A DNA stretch of 64,000 nt from Paenibacillus crassostreae. GTDB lineage: Bacteria; Bacillota; Bacilli; Paenibacillales; Paenibacillaceae. Under the pieces are notes generated by a model. The model was not told the DNA's origin. It did no database searches and saw only the letters and a program-made list of their open reading frames with translations. Below, piece by piece: positions 16,259 through 44,405 of the stretch. How positions within the stretch are numbered: the first letter of the stretch is position 1; the number at the start of each line of letters is the position of its first letter. Made by a program: the position numbers and the translations under genes. The stretch covers positions 2,852,001 through 2,916,000 of the forward strand of contig NZ_CP017770.1 of assembly GCF_001857945.1 (NCBI RefSeq), written 5' to 3'.

Positions 16259-16382
16259 GTGTATAAGAAGGAAGAACGCTAGAAGTTAACGAATTAGTTG
16301 AGGATAGTGCAAGGTTCGACAATTTACGCATCATGATTTTATGATTGCTTATTAAATGGAGACAGATGGAGGAAATCGATTT

Positions 16383-19300
16383 ATGGCTAGACTTAAATGC
16401 ATAGGCATCAAGATATTTATCGTTCTATTCCTATTGATAAGTATAGCGCCATATACGACTGTATCTGCTACGAATAGAGAGGAAATACCACGGAAGAATA
16501 TCCTAATCATTAACTCGTATCATAAGGGGTATGCATGGACAGATGATGTGACGAATGCTATTTCAGACACGATGAAGACATCTGAGTTGACAACAGTCCT
16601 CTATACGGAATATATGGACTGGAAGCGTGATCCTAGTGAGTCAACTCATGAGCATTTTTATGAAAGAATAAAGGATAAATATAACGGTGTCTCTATTGAT
16701 ATGATTATCGCTAATGATGATGTGGCATTGGATTTCGCAATCCGCCATCGAGAAGAATTACTCGATGATGCACCTATTGTATTTAGCGGAGTCAATCAGA
16801 CTGGAGTAGATGAAATTATCCAGAATCGTGATAATATCACAGGTATCATTGAAGCGATCGATCCAACGGGTACGATTAATATGGCCCTGGAGATTGATCC
16901 ATCCATTAAGAATGTATTTGTATTGTTTGATAATTCGGAGAGCGGCATTTCTACGGGGCGACTTGTCTTAGATAAGCTCTATAACATGGGGATTCCAATT
17001 TCTGTTTATCCACTTAATAATCTTAGCTATAACCAATTGATGAATAAAGTTGATAAGCTTGATTCAGACAGTATTCTATTGGTAACGACCTATTATAGTG
17101 ATGCTACCGGTACAACGATGGAGTATGAGCAATTTTACGGCGAATTGAGTGCTAATAGTGCAGTTCCCATGTATAGCATTTATGATTACACTTTAAATCA
17201 TGGTGCTATCGGTGGGGATATGCTCAGTGGTTATCTTTTAGGTAAGAGTACCGCAGATTTGGCAATTCAAATCCTTCAAGGAGACAATCCTAATGAGATT
17301 CCTTTTATAACCGAGAATACAAGTCGAAATGTTGTTGATTATGAACAACTTCAGCGCTTTAACATCCCATTAAGCAAGCTGCCGGATGGTAGCGAAGTGA
17401 TAAATAAGCCGTTTTCCTTTTATGAAGAGTATAAGGTTCTTGTGATCAGTACCATTAGTGTATTTGTGGTTCTAGTTTTACTGATAGGCAGTCTGATATT
17501 TTATATTAAGCAAGTTAAAAAAGTAAAGAAAAAACTGATAGAAAGCAATGAGCGATTTGCCCTTGCTGCCAATGGGTCGGATGCTGTTATTTGGGATGTA
17601 GATATGGCAACGGATGAGTATTACTTCCCAGATATATGGTATGAAATATTAGGTTATGAGAAGGGCGAGCTTAATGAGGCTCGTGGGGGATGGATGCGGA
17701 TCATTCATCCAGATGATATTCTGGGGGAAGTCATGCAGAGAAAGGAACATTTAGAGGGAAGCTCTCAGTATTATTATAATGAATATCGGATGTTGAACAA
17801 GTCAGGGAATTATACGTGGTTTCAAGCAAGAGGTAAAGTGATGCGGGATCGCAATGGTGTTAACACACGTTTTGCAGGTTCCATGACAGATATAACAGAT
17901 CGGAAAGAAGTTGAGCTGGAGCTACAAAAGAGTTATGAGGAGCTAGAAGCAACCTACGAGGAACTCACGGCGTTACAGGATGAACTCACACAGCAATATG
18001 ATAAGCTAGTTGAAAATCAGGGAATCCTCTCACGGAGTGAAGAAAGGTATCGCCTGATCACAGAAGCTACGAATGATGGAATCTGCGATATTGACTATCT
18101 TACGAATGAATACTTTTATTCTCAGCGATGGCGTGAATTGTTGATGGAAGAGGGTAGGATTTCTGAATCTTTGATGGTTACCGATCGGATTCACCCAGAT
18201 GATCTAAGAATGTATTTGAAGTCGTTAGAAGAACATAAGCTATGTAAAAGTGAATTTTATCAGTGTGAGATTCGTATGATGCAAGCTAATGGTGTGTACA
18301 AGTGGTTTCTCGTTAGAGGGAGAGTTCTCTTCGATGCAAATGGAGAAATCTATCGAATGGCAGGCTCTATTACAGACATTGAATTATTGAAACAATCGCA
18401 ACGAAAATTACATGAACTTGCGTATCATGATGCATTAACAGAGTTGCCAAATCGAGTATCATTAAAAAACGAATTTGGAAGATTTGTTGAGCAGGGTGTA
18501 GATATAAAGGCAGCTGTATTATTTATGGATATTGATCATTTCAAGAATATCAATGACTCCATGGGGCATACGTATGGGGATCAATTATTGGTAAAGGTTA
18601 GCGAAAGATTGAATAGCTTGTCAGATGGGAATCAGGCGTTCTTCCGTTTTGGTGGTGATGAATTCGTCATACTACTAACTCATATTGAAGGAGATGATGA
18701 AGTCATTACATTTACGGAGATCTTAATTCAATCCATTAAGGAACCTTTTGTGCTGTCTGAGAGCCAAGTACATATTTCAGCAAGTATAGGGATTGCTAAA
18801 TATCCAGAGGACGGGTTAAATATTGAGGATCTCCTGATGAATGCAGATGTGGCTATGTATAAGGCAAAGTCGAATCATTTAGGGGAATATGTCTTTTATA
18901 ATCAAAAGATGCAGGATTCCTTTAATGAAAGAATGGTGATTGAGAGTCATCTAAGAGATGCTATTACGAACCAAGAATTCTCCCTTCAATATCAACCTCA
19001 AGTTAATCTGCATAATGGAGAGACGTATGGATTCGAAGCTTTAATTCGTTGGAATAATCCTGAACTTGGTTTTGTATCGCCATTGACCTTTATTAAGGTG
19101 GCTGAAGATTGTCAGCTGATCATCCCTATCGGCGAATGGGCGCTTAGGACGGCATGTGTATTTATTAAAAATATTCACGATCAAGGATATGAAGGATACC
19201 GTGTATCTGTCAATATTTCTGTTGTGCAATTGATGCAGGATGCTTTCACAAGCATGGTGTTAACGGTACTAGAAGAGACTGGTCTTAGCCCCGAGTATCT

Positions 19301-19706
19301 GGAGTTGGAGATCACCGAATCCATTATCATGGAATCTTTAGAGAGAAATATTTCCAAATTACAATTATTAAGAGAGAAAGGAATCGCGATCGCTTTAGAC
19401 GATTTTGGAACAGGGTATTCTTCCTTAAGTTATTTGCGCCAATTACCCATTACAACCTTGAAAATTGATAAATCATTTATAGATAGTTTTCTAGGTCGAA
19501 ATGGTGATATATCGATTACAAGTTCTATTATTTCAGTTGGACATGATATGGGATTAGAGGTTGTAGCAGAAGGTGTTGAATTAGAGGAACAATTGTCCTT
19601 GTTGAAAGAATTGAAGTGTGATAAGGTTCAGGGGTATTTCATTAGTAAACCTATTCCTTCCAATGAAGTTGTTAATTGGATTGAGAGTCAGGTTATGGGT
19701 GATTAG
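16383..19706 (+). CDS. Membrane sensor with ABC-substrate-binding-like, PAS, PAS, GGDEF and EAL domains
   Basis: 1107 residues from ATG 16383, 9 bp after GGAGG; an upstream ATG (16356) lacks a ribosome site. Order: signal peptide/membrane segment (1-30), extracytoplasmic ABC_sub_bind-like domain (about 35-330), membrane helix (about 355-378), PAS (about 395-510), short coiled coil, PAS (about 555-670), GGDEF (core RFGGDEFVIL at about 755) and EAL (FEALIRW about 885, ELEITES, ALDDFGTGYSSL, KIDKSF, VAEGVE). Both catalytic signatures are intact, so it may make and/or break c-di-GMP. The extracellular module suggests sensing of a small ligand. Monocistronic. A c-di-GMP riboswitch occurs at 38.5 kb. 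Confidence 0.9.
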   Translation: MARLKCIGIKIFIVLFLLISIAPYTTVSATNREEIPRKNILIINSYHKGYAWTDDVTNAISDTMKTSELTTVLYTEYMDWKRDPSESTHEHFYERIKDKYNGVSIDMIIANDDVALDFAIRHREELLDDAPIVFSGVNQTGVDEIIQNRDNITGIIEAIDPTGTINMALEIDPSIKNVFVLFDNSESGISTGRLVLDKLYNMGIPISVYPLNNLSYNQLMNKVDKLDSDSILLVTTYYSDATGTTMEYEQFYGELSANSAVPMYSIYDYTLNHGAIGGDMLSGYLLGKSTADLAIQILQGDNPNEIPFITENTSRNVVDYEQLQRFNIPLSKLPDGSEVINKPFSFYEEYKVLVISTISVFVVLVLLIGSLIFYIKQVKKVKKKLIESNERFALAANGSDAVIWDVDMATDEYYFPDIWYEILGYEKGELNEARGGWMRIIHPDDILGEVMQRKEHLEGSSQYYYNEYRMLNKSGNYTWFQARGKVMRDRNGVNTRFAGSMTDITDRKEVELELQKSYEELEATYEELTALQDELTQQYDKLVENQGILSRSEERYRLITEATNDGICDIDYLTNEYFYSQRWRELLMEEGRISESLMVTDRIHPDDLRMYLKSLEEHKLCKSEFYQCEIRMMQANGVYKWFLVRGRVLFDANGEIYRMAGSITDIELLKQSQRKLHELAYHDALTELPNRVSLKNEFGRFVEQGVDIKAAVLFMDIDHFKNINDSMGHTYGDQLLVKVSERLNSLSDGNQAFFRFGGDEFVILLTHIEGDDEVITFTEILIQSIKEPFVLSESQVHISASIGIAKYPEDGLNIEDLLMNADVAMYKAKSNHLGEYVFYNQKMQDSFNERMVIESHLRDAITNQEFSLQYQPQVNLHNGETYGFEALIRWNNPELGFVSPLTFIKVAEDCQLIIPIGEWALRTACVFIKNIHDQGYEGYRVSVNISVVQLMQDAFTSMVLTVLEETGLSPEYLELEITESIIMESLERNISKLQLLREKGIAIALDDFGTGYSSLSYLRQLPITTLKIDKSFIDSFLGRNGDISITSSIISVGHDMGLEVVAEGVELEEQLSLLKELKCDKVQGYFISKPIPSNEVVNWIESQVMGD

Positions 19707-38325: not shown

Positions 38326-38475
38326 GTACGTAAATTAGGTGTTTTGATCAATAAATTATATAATTCGACAAAAAAATAGTCGTGTTACATGAAAAAATGA
38401 TGGATATATTTACAAATTAGTAGTAGAATGAGTCTCATTGTTGTTTATTGTCGAATAAAATTATCGATTTCATAT

Positions 38476-38558
38476 CTTAATAGGGCAAAACTACTGAAAA
38501 GTAGTGACGCAAAGCTATAGGGACTAATTCCTAAGGGGAAGTCAGCCAGTTGCAGCAA
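38476..38558 (+). ncRNA. c-di-GMP-I (GEMM) riboswitch aptamer
   Basis: The sequence carries the hallmark blocks in order: AGGGCAAAACTACTGAAAAG (P1b hairpin with GAAA tetraloop receptor context), GTGACGCAAAGCTATAGGG (conserved GACGCAAAGC), a variable P2/P3 hairpin (CTAATTCCTAAGGGGAAG), then CAGCCAGTTGC. This matches the GEMM-I consensus. It lies 150 bp before a chemotaxis receptor gene and is followed by an intrinsic terminator. Confidence 0.9.
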
Positions 38559-38561
38559 AAT

Positions 38562-38607
38562 GGATGATCTACAGCTGCTTTGTCAGTTTTTGTGGAACAT
38601 CCTTTTT
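38562..38607 (+). terminator. Riboswitch expression-platform terminator
   Basis: GGATGATCTAC pairs with GTGGAACATCC (11 bp with one A/A mismatch and one wobble), loop AGCTGCTTTGTCAGTTTTT, then TTTTTT. The 3' arm can alternatively fold into TGGAACA ... TGTTCCA (about 38592-38613), which would compete with it. Confidence 0.7.
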
Positions 38608-38733
38608 TGTTCCATGCCTAATCCAATGCGGACTAATGGATAAGAGAGTGATCGAGATTTTATTGTAAATGTAAAAGGCTAGTAGGAATTACATAATGAA
38701 GAGCACCATACTATGAAGACAAAGAGGAGATAT

Positions 38734-40503
38734 ATGATGAAGATGCCACAAATATTTAAAGGGATTATTAATAATAAAAGTATTGTCGTCAAAAACATGT
38801 TATGGACAAGTTTATTTATTATTTCGTCTGGAATTATATTAATTGCAGCAAGCTATTATATCCAAGGACAGGTTCTAACGAACCAATTGGAGTCGGATTC
38901 AAGGAAAATTATGGAAGCCTGGGAGAAAAAGGTTACAATGGAAGAGGCGTCCGAAGCGAAGGCGAATAAAGATCGTCAATCTCCGATCCAGAGAAAAATG
39001 GCAGAAGTATTTGCGGAATTGCCTGTTCAACATCCTAACGTAGCTCAAGGGTATTTATTTGGTCCTGAACTAACAAATGGTAATGAAACATCAATCATCG
39101 CTTTTTCAGATGAGACCATGGACATGCTTGCACAAGATGGACTAGAACTCGGAGCAATGTACCCGCAACCTGAAATTCATGCAGATGGTGTTAGAGAAAT
39201 GCTAGAGACCAAAGAAATGGCGTTTACCAAACCGTATGACGATGATTACGGTACATGGGTAACCGTTCTAACTCCATACCAGGATGCCGAAGGTACTATC
39301 TATGCCTATATGGGTATAGATGTCGATGCTAGCTTAATTAAGCACGGAAAGCAAGAATTGTTGAAATATACGTCGCTAGCTTTGCTGGTGACCCTACTTG
39401 TAATGATAACACTACAATATTTCATTACGAAGCGAACCTTCGCACCGGTGCAACATTTGATCAAGGCGTTGGAGAAATTAAGTAATGGAGATTTCAATGT
39501 ACAACTTGCAACAAGCAAGGATGAATTGGGTCAAGTAGCGGAGAAATTTAATACGACTGCAGTGAATATTAATCGCTTGGTTACGACGATTAAATCAATA
39601 TCTATACAATCGGCAGACCAATCCAAAGAATTATTCGCTACGTTGGAAGATAATCAACATATTTCAATGGAGATTACCACGAATATTGAAGAGATATCTG
39701 ATCAAGCGTCTCAACAAAGTAAGTCAATCATAGAGAGTGTAACTTCACTTGAAGAAATATCATCAGGGGTTAATACGATTGCAGGAAGTACCAATCAGTT
39801 GTCTGATACGTCAATGGATATGAGAGATCATTCCGAACAAGGTAGCGAGAATGTTGAACGGGTTATGAAGCAAATGGATGCTATTCATAAATCGGTACTC
39901 AACTCAGTGAGTTCGATGGAACAGCTGCAGAAACGTTCGGGACAGATTGGAGATATTGTTCAGGTGATTACTCAGATTGCTACGCAAACACAATTGCTAT
40001 CTCTAAATGCTAGTATCGAGGCAGCTAGAGCTGGAGAAGAGGGTAGAGGATTCGCGGTTGTTGCGAATGAGGTTAAGAAGCTATCTGAAGAATCAAAAAA
40101 ATCAGCAGAACAAATAACGGAGTTAATCCGATACATCCAAATGGAGACTCAAGTCGCAGTCGATGCGATCAATGAAGGCGAACATAATGTTGAAGTCGGA
40201 ATCGAGATTGTTCAAGAAACAGGTAAGTTATTTGCAACGATACAATCGGCTACAGAATCGGTTACAAGTCAAATTCAGGAAGTATCAGCTGCAACAGAAG
40301 AAATGGTAGCGGAGACGGAACAAATTACAGCTTCTATTAAACAGCTTGCGGTCATGGCAGAGAGAAATGCCGAAGTCTCGGAAGAGATCAAATCAAGTAC
40401 CCATGAACAACGTGAATCTTCTAATAAAATTGTGAACACGGCAGAGCATTTGAGTCAAATCTCGACTAAGCTTGAAGAATTAGTTATTCAATTGAAAGTT
40501 TAG
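38734..40503 (+). CDS. Methyl-accepting chemotaxis protein
   Basis: About 589 residues; ATG 38734 or 38737 follow AGAGGAG, while ATG 38713 precedes it. Membrane helices at about 22-45 and 220-242 bracket a ~175-residue extracytoplasmic sensor. HAMP follows ([18 protein letters not shown]), then a cytoplasmic signalling coiled coil with hairpin tip [20 protein letters not shown] and [13 protein letters not shown]. The gene is downstream of a c-di-GMP riboswitch, so receptor production is tied to the motility/biofilm second messenger. Only 70 bp separate it from the NRPS-like gene. Confidence 0.93.
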
Positions 40504-40573
40504 TATAGACATATCGCATTTGAAGATTGTTTGGGGGTTACCGAACTTATAGAGAGATAATAAGGAGCTGAAG

Positions 40574-43500
40574 ATGTTGAAAGCCATACTAAATAGTGAA
40601 ACTAAGAAAGATTACTGGGTAAGAGAGCTTCAGACTCCTTTGTCAGCATTAGACATGTATACAGATTTTCCCAAGCATTTGACTTCCAGAGAGGTTCAGA
40701 AAACGACATTAAAACTTGAAATAAACTCTGATGAAACGATTAAACTTAAGCATCTAGGTGATATGAGCGTGTGGATGCTTAGTTGTTACTTTGTATTTCT
40801 GTACAGAATGACGGGGGAAAGAGATTTAATTGTTGGAGTAAATGATGCAATAGGGAATGTAATACCACTTCGAGTGATATGGGAAGGCGATATTTCATTT
40901 CAGCAGCTATGTAACCAAATTACGGAGAAATTAAACACTGCCTATGAGGTTAGTGCCCCATTATCCGAAATTGAACAATTGACAGGGCAATCATCCATTA
41001 TGAGGACTATCTATGGTGAAGATGATACGGTCAAGGATAGCGATCTAAATTGGATTGTTCGTGAAAATGCCGGCGTATGGATTACTCATATCACCTATCA
41101 TAAGAACTTATTCAAAGAAAGCACTATTCTTAAATTTTCACGGCACTTCGAGTACATTGTAAAAGCAACGTTAGCCAATAACACGGTTTCCATCGGAAGT
41201 ATTCCGATCTTAACTGAAGAAGATATGAACGCATATGCTGAGCTCAATAGTACAAACAAAGAATGGTCTGAGATGTTAACGATCCCAGCAATGTTTGCGT
41301 CAGCAGTGGAGAAATATTCTAATCATGTTGCGCTTTCCTCGGATGAGGGGAGTCTAACCTACAGTCAATTGGATCGTTTATCGAATCAAGTGGCTCACAT
41401 GTTGGTGCAAAAGGGTGTTACTAAAGGTGAATTTGTTGCTATCTTCATGGAGAGAAGCATGGATGCCATTGTAAGTATGTTGGGTGTACTAAAGGCTGGA
41501 GGGGCGTATATTCCTCTTGATCCGGAGCATCCAGATGATCGGAATTCATACATTATTACAGACACTCAGTCCCACATCGTTATAACCAAAGAGAATTTTA
41601 CATCGAAATTACAAGAACTGTTAAGTGATAATCATTCGGAAGTGTCTATTTTTTGTCTGGACAAGCAGTTAGATGTGTATCCCGATAGCTCCGTAGATGT
41701 CATTCATGATCCTGAAGATATGGCTTATGTTATCTATACATCCGGTTCTACAGGCAAGCCTAAAGGAGCTATGATCGCACATGCTGGCGTTGTGAACCTT
41801 GCCTTGGGAACCAAGGAAGATCTCCAGTTTAATGAAGATGATATTATGTTGCAGTATTCTACATTCAGCTTCGATGCATCGGTTTATGACATGTACAGTT
41901 CACTGTGTAGCGGAGCTAGGTTGCATATCTTGAATAATGAACAGCGCTTCTCGATAGAATCATTTACCGCAGCTATTGAAGAAGTGAAAGCAACGCGTCT
42001 CTGTCTCTTACCAACCGTATTCTTCAATCAATTGTCTGCTCATCTAAGTAAGGAAGATGCATTGAAGTACAGCGTGATCAAGAGTCTCGTTGTGGGTGGT
42101 GAGGCGTTATCTGGTGAGTCCGTTCGAGTATTACAGAAGAAGCTGGATAAGAATATTATGATTCAAAACGTGTATGGTCCAACGGAGGTCACAGCATTAA
42201 CAACGGGCCATATCATTGATTATATCGTCGCAGAAGATGTATCTAGCATTCCTATTGGTAAACCTCTCACAAACTATGAGGTACTGATTGTGAACGAGAA
42301 TAATCAACCTTGTCCACTGAATGTGATGGGTGAAATGTTGATTAGTTCTGTGGGTATTGCTAAAGGGTATTTGAACTTACAGGAAAAGACGAATGAAGTA
42401 TTCATCTCGGATCCTATTTATCCGAATTCAGGCAAGCGATATTACCGTTCTGGGGATATGGTTATGCTACAAGAAAACGGAATTCAATACGTGAGTAGAA
42501 AAGATTTTCAGGTTAAGATTCGAGGCTATCGAATTGAGATCGGTGAAATTGAAGAAAATCTAATTAAACACGAGAACATCAAAGAAACAGCAATCATTGC
42601 TAAGGCAGAAGCAGATGGAACAAAGTATCTGGTTGCCTTCTATACAACGAAGAATGGGGAAGCGATAGCTAAAAGTGAGCTTGTCCAGTATTTGAATAAA
42701 AAGGTGCCATCTTATATGGTGCCAAGTCATTTCTACTACCTAGCGGAAATGCCTGTATCGCCTACGGCTAAGATCGACCGTAAACAACTTGCACGTTATG
42801 AAGTAGAGGTAACCGTAGAGGAGAACGCCGATTATGTAGCTCCCCGTAATGAATTAGAGCAGACGATCTCCGAAGCGTGGGAGAAGGCGATAAATCGTAC
42901 TCATATTGGTATACATGATGATTTCTTTGAAGTTGGAGGGCATTCTCTGAAGATTTTAGAGATTCTTGTTATTCTAAAACCACAGTACCCACAATTAAAA
43001 ATTAATGATTTCTTCGCATTTCCTACCATCGCAAAATTGGCAGAGAGAGTGGTTGACCTACAGAACACGATTGTCATCCAGAACAATATTGCTGACAGTA
43101 CGGACATGCAAAATCTAGAGGAATTTCCGAAATCGTTCGGAACGCATTCTTCTAGTGACGTAAAGGTATACAGTAATAAACATGTCCTATTAACAGGTGC
43201 TACGGGATATTTGGGTTCACATCTTCTATATGAACTAATTCAGAGATCTGAAGCAACCGTGTACTGTTTAGTGCGTTCTTCAGGTAATGATGATCCTTAC
43301 CAACGTCTTGTAGGAATTATGAAGAATTACTTTGGGGACAGCATCGGTTCGAAGCTTGAAGGTAGAGTTATTGCTATTCAGGGGGATTTGGAGAAAGAAA
43401 ACCTAGGATTGATTGATGAGGTCGCGGCATTATTACAGGATAAGATTGATTCGATCATCCATTGTGCAGCTGAAGTGAAGCATTTTGGCGATGCTGAGTA

Positions 43501-44290
43501 TTTCGCTAGAGTTAATGTAGAGAGCACGAATCGATTGCTTTCATTCGCTAGAGGGAAAGAACATGTTCGCTTTCACTTTGTGTCTACTCTAGGAATACCA
43601 GAAGATTTAGCATTAAGTGACCAATGGAATACGTTTGCTGAGCAGGATGCTTACGATTATTCCGTGAGTATTGAGAATGTATATACCAATAGTAAGCTGG
43701 AAGCGGAGAAATTAGTCGTTAGAACTTGCGAAGAGGAAGGCGTTGCGGCAACGGTATATCGTGTCGGGAACCTGTCCTGTCATTCTGAGACGGGCGCATT
43801 TCAGAATAACATAAACAATAATGCATTTTATCGAATGCTCAAAGCGATGTTACTTTTGAAAAAAGCTCCTCAGGTCCGTTGGCAAGTTGACTTGACACCG
43901 ATTAACTATGCGGGACAAGCGATTACCGCGTTAGCTCTAAGTGACGATACCGTAGGTAAGATGTTTCATATTTGTAATCCTGTGCAGATTCCGTATGAAG
44001 AGATGATTGAATCCTTCCACAAATACGGATATGATATAACCCTTTTGGACTGGGAACAGTACGAATCATGGCTGTTCGACAGTAGTCAGCCGAAGGAACA
44101 GACTGGATTGGAGTTGGCTATGGCCCAGCTTGAAGGAGATGGGGCTAAGAACTCCATTTATAGATTTGCTTGTCCTCAAACAACCGACTATTTACAGAAA
44201 TTAAATGTAGCGTGTCAAGTACCGGATGAGGGTTTCTTCCAGCGTCTTATTGAACATGCCATTGCGGTTGACTATTTCGATAAACCTTAA
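40574..44290 (+). CDS. Single-module NRPS-like protein with terminal thioester reductase (partial C, A, PCP, R)
   Basis: 1238 residues, ATG 12 bp after AAGGAG start. Residues 1-230 resemble only the C-terminal lobe of a condensation domain, without HHxxxDG. Adenylation domain about 240-730: A3 YTSGSTGKPKGAM (about 387), A4 STFSFDASVYDMY, A5 NVYGPTEVT, A8 VKIRGYRIEIGEIEE. Carrier domain with phosphopantetheine Ser in EVGGHSLKI (about 791). Thioester-reductase domain from about 870: NADP loop VLLTGATGYLG, catalytic Tyr/Lys in YTNSKLEAEK (about 1037/1041). It should activate an acid and release it as aldehyde or alcohol. No terminator separates it from the MCP gene, so both may be under the riboswitch. 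Confidence 0.88.
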   Translation: MLKAILNSETKKDYWVRELQTPLSALDMYTDFPKHLTSREVQKTTLKLEINSDETIKLKHLGDMSVWMLSCYFVFLYRMTGERDLIVGVNDAIGNVIPLRVIWEGDISFQQLCNQITEKLNTAYEVSAPLSEIEQLTGQSSIMRTIYGEDDTVKDSDLNWIVRENAGVWITHITYHKNLFKESTILKFSRHFEYIVKATLANNTVSIGSIPILTEEDMNAYAELNSTNKEWSEMLTIPAMFASAVEKYSNHVALSSDEGSLTYSQLDRLSNQVAHMLVQKGVTKGEFVAIFMERSMDAIVSMLGVLKAGGAYIPLDPEHPDDRNSYIITDTQSHIVITKENFTSKLQELLSDNHSEVSIFCLDKQLDVYPDSSVDVIHDPEDMAYVIYTSGSTGKPKGAMIAHAGVVNLALGTKEDLQFNEDDIMLQYSTFSFDASVYDMYSSLCSGARLHILNNEQRFSIESFTAAIEEVKATRLCLLPTVFFNQLSAHLSKEDALKYSVIKSLVVGGEALSGESVRVLQKKLDKNIMIQNVYGPTEVTALTTGHIIDYIVAEDVSSIPIGKPLTNYEVLIVNENNQPCPLNVMGEMLISSVGIAKGYLNLQEKTNEVFISDPIYPNSGKRYYRSGDMVMLQENGIQYVSRKDFQVKIRGYRIEIGEIEENLIKHENIKETAIIAKAEADGTKYLVAFYTTKNGEAIAKSELVQYLNKKVPSYMVPSHFYYLAEMPVSPTAKIDRKQLARYEVEVTVEENADYVAPRNELEQTISEAWEKAINRTHIGIHDDFFEVGGHSLKILEILVILKPQYPQLKINDFFAFPTIAKLAERVVDLQNTIVIQNNIADSTDMQNLEEFPKSFGTHSSSDVKVYSNKHVLLTGATGYLGSHLLYELIQRSEATVYCLVRSSGNDDPYQRLVGIMKNYFGDSIGSKLEGRVIAIQGDLEKENLGLIDEVAALLQDKIDSIIHCAAEVKHFGDAEYFARVNVESTNRLLSFARGKEHVRFHFVSTLGIPEDLALSDQWNTFAEQDAYDYSVSIENVYTNSKLEAEKLVVRTCEEEGVAATVYRVGNLSCHSETGAFQNNINNNAFYRMLKAMLLLKKAPQVRWQVDLTPINYAGQAITALALSDDTVGKMFHICNPVQIPYEEMIESFHKYGYDITLLDWEQYESWLFDSSQPKEQTGLELAMAQLEGDGAKNSIYRFACPQTTDYLQKLNVACQVPDEGFFQRLIEHAIAVDYFDKP

Positions 44291-44356
44291 AGCAATGAAT
44301 GTTGCGGTACGGGGCACAACTAAATTAGATTATTGTTTACAAAAACGATGATTACA

Positions 44357-44394
44357 CAGAAGAAGGGCTTCCGAATACGGAAGCCCTTCTTCTG
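44357..44394. terminator. Long perfect hairpin between convergent genes
   Basis: CAGAAGAAGGGCTTCCG and its exact complement around an AATA loop (17-bp arms). T-run is absent, but it separates the NRPS-like gene and lipL. Confidence 0.75.
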
Positions 44395-44405
44395 TGCGTG
44401 TGTAT

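Follow-up and report, generated by a model that had tools for sequence, protein, structure and literature searches.

The stretch analyzed here, referred to as the window, comprises 64,000 nucleotides of Paenibacillus crassostreae (assembly GCF_001857945.1, contig NZ_CP017770.1, positions 2,852,001 to 2,916,000 of the forward strand). Within it, a class-I riboswitch aptamer predicted to bind the second messenger cyclic di-GMP (c-di-GMP) and an intrinsic terminator precede a gene for a methyl-accepting chemotaxis protein (MCP), which is followed by a gene for an enzyme resembling a nonribosomal peptide synthetase (NRPS). The parts of this region, their order and their conservation are established at the level of sequence, and the reading of aptamer, terminator, MCP gene and NRPS gene as one putative transcription unit is supported. 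Coordinates are collected in Table 1.

Table 1. Features of the putative riboswitch–MCP–NRPS unit (window positions; position 1 is the first letter of the window).
Feature	Position	Strand	Details
Candidate promoter TGGATA-17-TAGAAT	38401..38429	+	9 of 12 consensus letters; low confidence
Class-I c-di-GMP riboswitch aptamer (RF01051)	38474-38557	+	72 bits versus gathering score of 35; E 3.7e-12; full length
Intrinsic terminator (expression platform)	38562..38608	+	Stem 38562-38602 at -15.1 kcal/mol; T-run 38603-38608 (six T)
Methyl-accepting chemotaxis protein	38713..40503	+	Open reading frame of 596 aa; HAMP and MCPsignal
MCP–NRPS gap	40504..40573	+	70 bp; AAGGAG ribosome-site-like sequence; no terminator listed
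NRPS-like enzyme	40574..44290	+	1238 aa; half condensation domain 1-235, adenylation (A) domain 242-740, peptidyl carrier protein (PCP) 764-826, thioester reductase 870-1230
Strong terminator-like hairpin ending the unit	44355-44396	+	19 pairs, 11 G-C

The aptamer was the sole Rfam match above gathering score in the whole window, and both its covariance-model score and the expression platform downstream of it place it in RF01051. Scored with a model derived from 13 operon-family aptamers, the window's own among them, it reached 90.8 bits. It carries a G at the position corresponding to G20 of Vc2. The terminator stem was not listed by the stock terminator scan, which allows loops of 3–8 nucleotides only. 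Promoter-like sites of the kind given in Table 1 were no commoner in the promoter scan than in shuffled sequence (22 found versus 20.0 expected); a TAGTAAAAT-like −10 element was seen by eye 5′ of the aptamer in several relatives.

Domain scores over cut-off (MCPsignal, 154.6 bits; HAMP, 34.7 bits) identified the first gene product as an MCP. A ribosome-site-like sequence, AGAGGAG, suggests that its true start is the ATG at 38734 or 38737. Two hydrophobic segments (assigned by eye) enclose one extracytoplasmic Cache/PAS-like sensor (approximately residues 51–213), which is followed by HAMP and the signaling domain. Modeling of the sensor fold (pLDDT 92) gave a single Cache/PAS-like domain, and the top matches found via structure were a WalK model (Z 14.3, 4.8 Å over 214 residues) and KinD (4jgo; Z 13.2, 4.6 Å over 168 residues), although the long helices of the model mean that these Z values partly reflect a common arrangement and are less telling. 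No meaningful match to solved structures was obtained with the sensor sequence, and the Pfam PDC sensor model matched 22 of 69 members of the MCP family, the window protein not being one of them. Eleven sensor residues were invariant among the 69 aligned members and likewise in 86 of 86 of a larger set; several of them may merely define the Cache fold.

For the NRPS-like enzyme, Pfam matches over cut-off were obtained to AMP-binding, AMP-binding_C, PP-binding and NAD_binding_4, and the score with the thioester-reductase model TIGR01746 (210.7 bits) was slightly below its cut-off of 213.35. Residues 1–235 resemble a condensation domain reduced to its C-terminal half. Of the condensation profile they cover just the final 75 positions (PF00668 positions 378–452 of 456), the N-terminal region matches the condensation family in 53 of 54 NRPS members, and comparison of the fold with the condensation domain 2jgp gave a TM-score of 0.74 by query length and 0.36 by target length. 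The catalytic histidine motif belongs to the N-terminal half of condensation domains. A full condensation domain was rejected, given the approximately 235 residues before the A domain, the match to the C-terminal profile end only and the lack of a His-His pair; L-aminoadipate reductase Lys2 (TIGR03443) was also rejected (396.4 bits versus 1030).

Active-site residues were followed in an alignment of 92 sequences, made up of the window and 91 of the 92 ortholog loci described below (L190, which has no intact reading frame, was excluded). PCP Ser791, A-domain Lys733 and reductase Thr1005 and Lys1041 were invariant in 92 of 92, Tyr1037 was kept in 91 of 92, and nine of the 11 positions of the A3 motif were invariant. 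With an A domain, a PCP and a reductase that all retain their active residues, the protein is classed as an NRPS of the adenylation–thiolation–reductase (A-T-R, or ATRed) type. The A-domain code of the window, read by motif at the positions defined for GrsA, is DAYLVGVALK; among the closer relatives 25 of 38 have DAYIVG[AL]V[VA]K, and among the distant ones 31 of 53 have DAWITAVV[CA]K. Because the Asp of this code, the residue that binds the amino group, is kept in 91 of 92 sequences (Gly in L114), the substrate is likely an α-amino acid with a hydrophobic side chain. The enzyme would probably release the corresponding amino aldehyde, which perhaps turns into a pyrazine.

An earlier note on this DNA had described a GEMM-I aptamer with a terminator ahead of an MCP gene, a 1238-residue A-PCP-reductase enzyme forming an aldehyde or alcohol, and a gap between the two genes of only 70 bp with no terminator. 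The leader was borne out by the aptamer score and by the stem with its T-run, and the enzyme by its domain matches, with the half condensation domain as an addition. Aldehyde- or alcohol-forming activity is supported by the conserved active-site residues, the product itself being predicted. The gap proved real in the site scan, which listed no plus-strand terminator-like or promoter-like site within it.

Conservation of the pair was then assessed across genomes. NRPS orthologs of at least 1534 bits were present in 13 of 100 genomes of the genus (next-best match, 609 bits), and MCP orthologs (E up to 1e-130) were present in the identical 13. In the family, NRPS orthologs (E up to 1e-230) were found in 135 of 394 genomes, the own genome counted, and an order-wide sample yielded 24 further orthologs from other families; a contig search with the NRPS protein gave no confirmed relative. 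Beyond the window, 92 ortholog loci were read (72 of the 134 other family genomes, genome G255 of the family and 19 of the 24 order-wide); every member found of the closer clade was read, and the distant loci are a partial set hand-picked for spread. An intact MCP of the same subfamily was encoded immediately 5′ of the NRPS gene, on the same strand, at 86 of the 92 loci, which span several families of the order. The exceptions were L114, where the MCP is gone, L131 and L205, where both genes are broken in the assembly, and L179–L181, which have no such MCP. Scored as adjacent were L178 and L197 (a short reading frame overlapping the gap) and L190 (NRPS gene interrupted by a stop), and L046 was excluded from the ortholog counts as an unrelated NRPS of 1196 aa with 31–35% identity, cut by the contig end. 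In seven of seven distant-clade genomes tested, the best MCP match adjoined the NRPS gene (383–426 bits versus 174–240 bits for other MCPs). Chance adjacency would be rare, because MCP-signal matches over cut-off number only 16 in the own genome. Flanks of the closest relative, L034, have cysteine synthase, lipoyl-ligase-like and glycosyltransferase genes in common with the window; the flanking genes of L035, L038 and L043 differ from the window's.

With the family aptamer model, 32 aptamers were found in the 93 loci (window plus 92), all of them 5′ of the unit and on its strand. They were present at 29 of 39 closer-clade loci (window counted) and three of 54 distant loci, and when seven loci without an aptamer were rescanned with Rfam at a low threshold for hidden ones, just three irrelevant chance-level matches came up. 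All 25 leaders examined had a terminator hairpin 3′ of the aptamer. Six of these leaders (L115, L116 and L118–L121) have an insert of approximately 85–125 nucleotides, with hairpin-like repeats of its own, between aptamer and terminator. In the aptamers at L038:10017-10101, L185:7464-7548 and L203:2660-2746, an A replaces the G at the position corresponding to Vc2 20, as it does in GEMM-I RNAs of the cGAMP type, and the ligand of those three aptamers may differ.

The 450 nucleotides upstream of the MCP gene were also scanned for the pattern T[AT]AA-N14-16-[GA]CCGAT, the consensus of sigma-D promoters being TAAA-N15-GCCGATAT-like. The pattern was picked after some leaders had been viewed, and the counts are descriptive. 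Sigma-D-like sites were found in 10 of 10 aptamer-less closer-clade loci, in five of 27 closer-clade loci with an aptamer and an intact MCP, and in 0 of 49 distant loci, as against 0.003–0.009 sites per locus in letter-shuffled sequences. Four of the five both-bearing loci form one clade, and the match at the fifth, L122, may be chance. No such site was present in the 450 nucleotides scanned in the window, which does not place its MCP gene in the sigma-D regulon. In a quick NRPS tree (L131 left out; L122 labeled aptamer-only), the sigma-D-only loci formed two clades nested in one of 19 rows, which also includes aptamer-only and both-bearing loci and whose inner forks have support of 80–85. The most economical account is that of an old aptamer in the closer clade that was replaced on two occasions, perhaps via a both-bearing state; the starred branches of the tree alone force a single change. 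In Bacillus, flagellar and chemotaxis genes are under the control of sigma-D, so each of the two wirings points to motile cells, and the operon seems tied to that low c-di-GMP state by either the aptamer or the sigma-D route. The distant clade has mostly neither.

Two questions of control bear on the interpretation: how far the riboswitch reaches and in which direction it acts. Were it to govern the MCP gene alone, the NRPS gene would need its own promoter, for which the 70-bp gap of the window leaves room, and terminator-like sites do occur in the MCP–NRPS gap of the distant loci L174 and L196. We nevertheless regard such restricted control as very improbable. The gaps of 36 closer-clade relatives measure −1 to 96 bp and none of the 36 has a terminator-like site; at L042–L045 they are −1, 2, 2 and 2 bp, the stop overlapping the start in L042. 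At L114, moreover, where the MCP is missing and other MCPs are encoded elsewhere in the genome, an aptamer (65.6 bits) and a terminator stand immediately before the NRPS gene, which makes this locus a natural test of shared control. A terminator-free gap of 70 bp is weak evidence alone, and the case is made by conservation. The shared control of receptor and enzyme proposed in the earlier note thus gains comparative support from the upstream MCPs, the terminator-free gaps and L114, and the homolog search that it had suggested recovered both the gene order and, chiefly in the closer clade, the aptamer. As for direction, the window riboswitch is, by analogy, most likely an OFF switch. In many relatives, the aptamer P3 strand GCUAUAGG is complementary to the 5′ arm of the terminator, forming a candidate antiterminator; over 22 aligned leaders this pairing held in 85.7% of cells versus 20.8–47.4% after sliding. 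The complementarity fits an OFF switch in the relatives, and the window sequence alone leaves polarity unsettled, so that an ON switch, by which c-di-GMP would favor read-through and receptor and enzyme would be made in sessile or biofilm cells, is compatible with it. We consider the ON switch improbable. The terminator (38562 on) is clear of the aptamer (ending at 38557), leaving ligand binding no direct way to break it; the complementary strand within the relatives' aptamers fits the opposite polarity, within the limits of the shuffle and covariation tests; and the sigma-D-like promoters of aptamer-less relatives suggest expression in motile cells. Class-I c-di-GMP switches of Clostridioides difficile are also mostly OFF, with one exception according to the discussion section of PMC6200980.

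On balance, we think it probable that the region is one unit under an OFF switch, encoding an amino-aldehyde enzyme and an MCP that reads a pathway-linked compound, with sigma-D as an alternative input in relatives. At high c-di-GMP, the aptamer would fold and the terminator form, halting transcription before both genes; at low c-di-GMP, as in motile cells, MCP and NRPS would both be made. The carrier domain of the NRPS-like enzyme would be loaded with a hydrophobic amino acid, and the reductase would set this free as an amino aldehyde, which could give a pyrazine by dimerization or an amino alcohol by reduction. The MCP, with its single Cache-type sensor, would feed the chemotaxis system and most plausibly recognize a compound tied to the pathway, whether product, derivative or amino acid; in some relatives a sigma-D-like promoter would tie the unit to motility in place of the aptamer. 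The 16 MCP-signal matches, together with three matches to the phosphopantetheinyl transferase family and 11 to GGDEF, make chemotaxis, carrier loading and c-di-GMP signaling all plausible in the own genome. That the MCP reads a compound of the enzyme's pathway is a guess supported by the linkage only. Going further, the enzyme might make a diffusible compound derived from the amino aldehyde, such as a pyrazine, with the partner MCP as the receptor for this compound, so that motile cells would emit and follow their own trail through a link rewired between riboswitch and sigma-D; this self-signal chemotaxis we put forward only tentatively. An amino-aldehyde-derived small molecule of motile cells was judged most likely on the strength of a minimal A-T-R NRPS of Xenorhabdus, for which an amino aldehyde dimerizing to a pyrazine is proposed (available part of PMC7586950), and of a myxobacterial pyrazinone that raises cell aggregation (available part of PMC10979478). 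Unlikely, in our estimation, is that the two genes are co-regulated neighbors only, both belonging to the motile state, with the MCP sensing an unrelated nutrient amino or organic acid and the product acting elsewhere, for instance as an antimicrobial or a volatile. Receptors for amino acids and organic acids are indeed among the solved sensors with a similar fold, and unlinked MCP paralogs exist. Co-variation of the A-domain code with the sensor is also not specific to the sensor (partial r 0.131 versus 0.142 for the MCP signaling domain); none of 500 permutations reached the sensor value, relatedness being uncontrolled, and distance correlations of 0.84–0.92 for all pairs of MCP and NRPS domains do not discriminate. 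However, motile-state regulons are usually scattered, and adjacency at 86 of 92 loci in several families is not required by shared control alone.

Several observations weigh against the preferred reading of one OFF-switched unit with a pathway-linked receptor. A second full-length MCP of the subfamily is encoded away from the NRPS gene in three of the seven distant-clade genomes tested (391, 384 and 323 bits), and genomes G401, G408 and G412 keep the NRPS without a subfamily MCP, though other MCPs are present; the MCP and NRPS genes are strongly linked, yet receptors of this family also occur outside the pairing. The aptamer is absent from 51 of the 54 more distant loci, and none of the 46 distant loci without aptamer that were scanned has a sigma-D-like site. 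Pairing of GCUAUAGG with the terminator arm was no better than with shuffled arms in the window (fraction 0.42) and reached ≤0.02 in only nine of 25 leaders, with several near copies among the nine. The 22 aligned leaders have no two-sided change, and redealing letters among the sequences gave 86.0%; this is conserved complementarity, not covariation. A second antiterminator candidate, between the aptamer 3′ strand and the terminator loop, was at chance level in the window (0.36). Finally, Bc1 of Bacillus thuringiensis binds c-di-GMP, yet its downstream genes are unresponsive (available part of PMC11218506), so the presence of an aptamer is no proof of a working switch.

A similar association was seen at a second type of NRPS gene. 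A class-I aptamer lay 49–244 nucleotides upstream of the reading-frame start in nine of nine AusA-like two-module NRPS genes (L150–L158, 2280–2319 aa), which are all the AusA-like loci among the matches listed, and a terminator-like hairpin followed it at these loci. The second antiterminator candidate gave ≤0.03 in three of the nine leaders, two of these being near copies. In most L150–L158 aptamers, GGUAAA occurs together with GACACAAAG, apparently a paired core change. The stretches retrieved for seven other loci with reductase or hybrid NRPS genes contained no aptamer, and two of these stretches (3.6-kaa reading frames) may stop short of the gene start; none was found either in the stretch of L046, cut by the contig end. 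In this group, class-I c-di-GMP switches thus repeatedly target NRPS genes of the reductase-ended type.

Further features were recorded in passing. A 1116-aa protein with ABC_sub_bind, PAS, GGDEF and EAL domains, encoded at 16356-19706 of the window, is a possible c-di-GMP enzyme approximately 19 kb upstream. The own genome has a second class-I aptamer (L033:2843-2928, G000:C1:3545842; 79.6 bits) that precedes genes for a response regulator, a FapA-type protein and an HD-domain protein. An apparent CRISPR array with cas-like genes, guessed from reading-frame starts, lies beside an unlinked MCP relative (L209:6544-13754), and PreQ1 riboswitches are found on the opposite strand at L043:1830-1873, L044:1667-1710 and L045:1642-1685.

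In a literature search of partial coverage, judged in part by titles and abstract openings, no description of such a riboswitch–MCP–NRPS operon was found, and the available parts of PMC6878767 and PMC3012674 do not describe it. The pair is compact and widely conserved, and it places a chemoreceptor beside a candidate source of its ligand, which allows two orphan proteins, the receptor and the enzyme, to be tested against one another. By preceding reductase-ended NRPS genes of two families, c-di-GMP riboswitches would link second-messenger state directly to small-molecule production. The operon also provides a natural case of one unit apparently tied to motility via an RNA switch in some species and via a flagellar-type promoter in others.

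The arrangement is new, and its parts are known. AusA (NF047350) was the best NCBIfam model for both the window protein (629.1 bits) and L150, the only AusA-like locus scored against it (1411.2 bits), both far below its cut-off of 2500; membership was rejected for the window enzyme, which has one module, whereas AusA has two and yields a dipeptide aldehyde, from which a pyrazinone forms. The extracytoplasmic Cache/PAS sensors of KinD, WalK, DctB and Tlp3 have a fold in common with the window MCP sensor, the likeness being one of fold and not of sequence. ATRed of Xenorhabdus indica, a minimal A-T-R NRPS that makes a phenylalanine-derived pyrazine (available part of PMC7586950), has single A, carrier and reductase domains as in the window enzyme, for which amino-aldehyde release is likewise predicted; compared by description rather than by sequence, the window enzyme differs in its additional N-terminal half condensation domain, its predicted substrate, its co-encoded MCP and its c-di-GMP riboswitch. 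With the class-I riboswitches of C. difficile, such as that before flgB (available part of PMC6200980), the window shares the RNA family, transcription termination and a motility-related target; here the target is a receptor–NRPS operon, and OFF is the polarity that the analysis favors.

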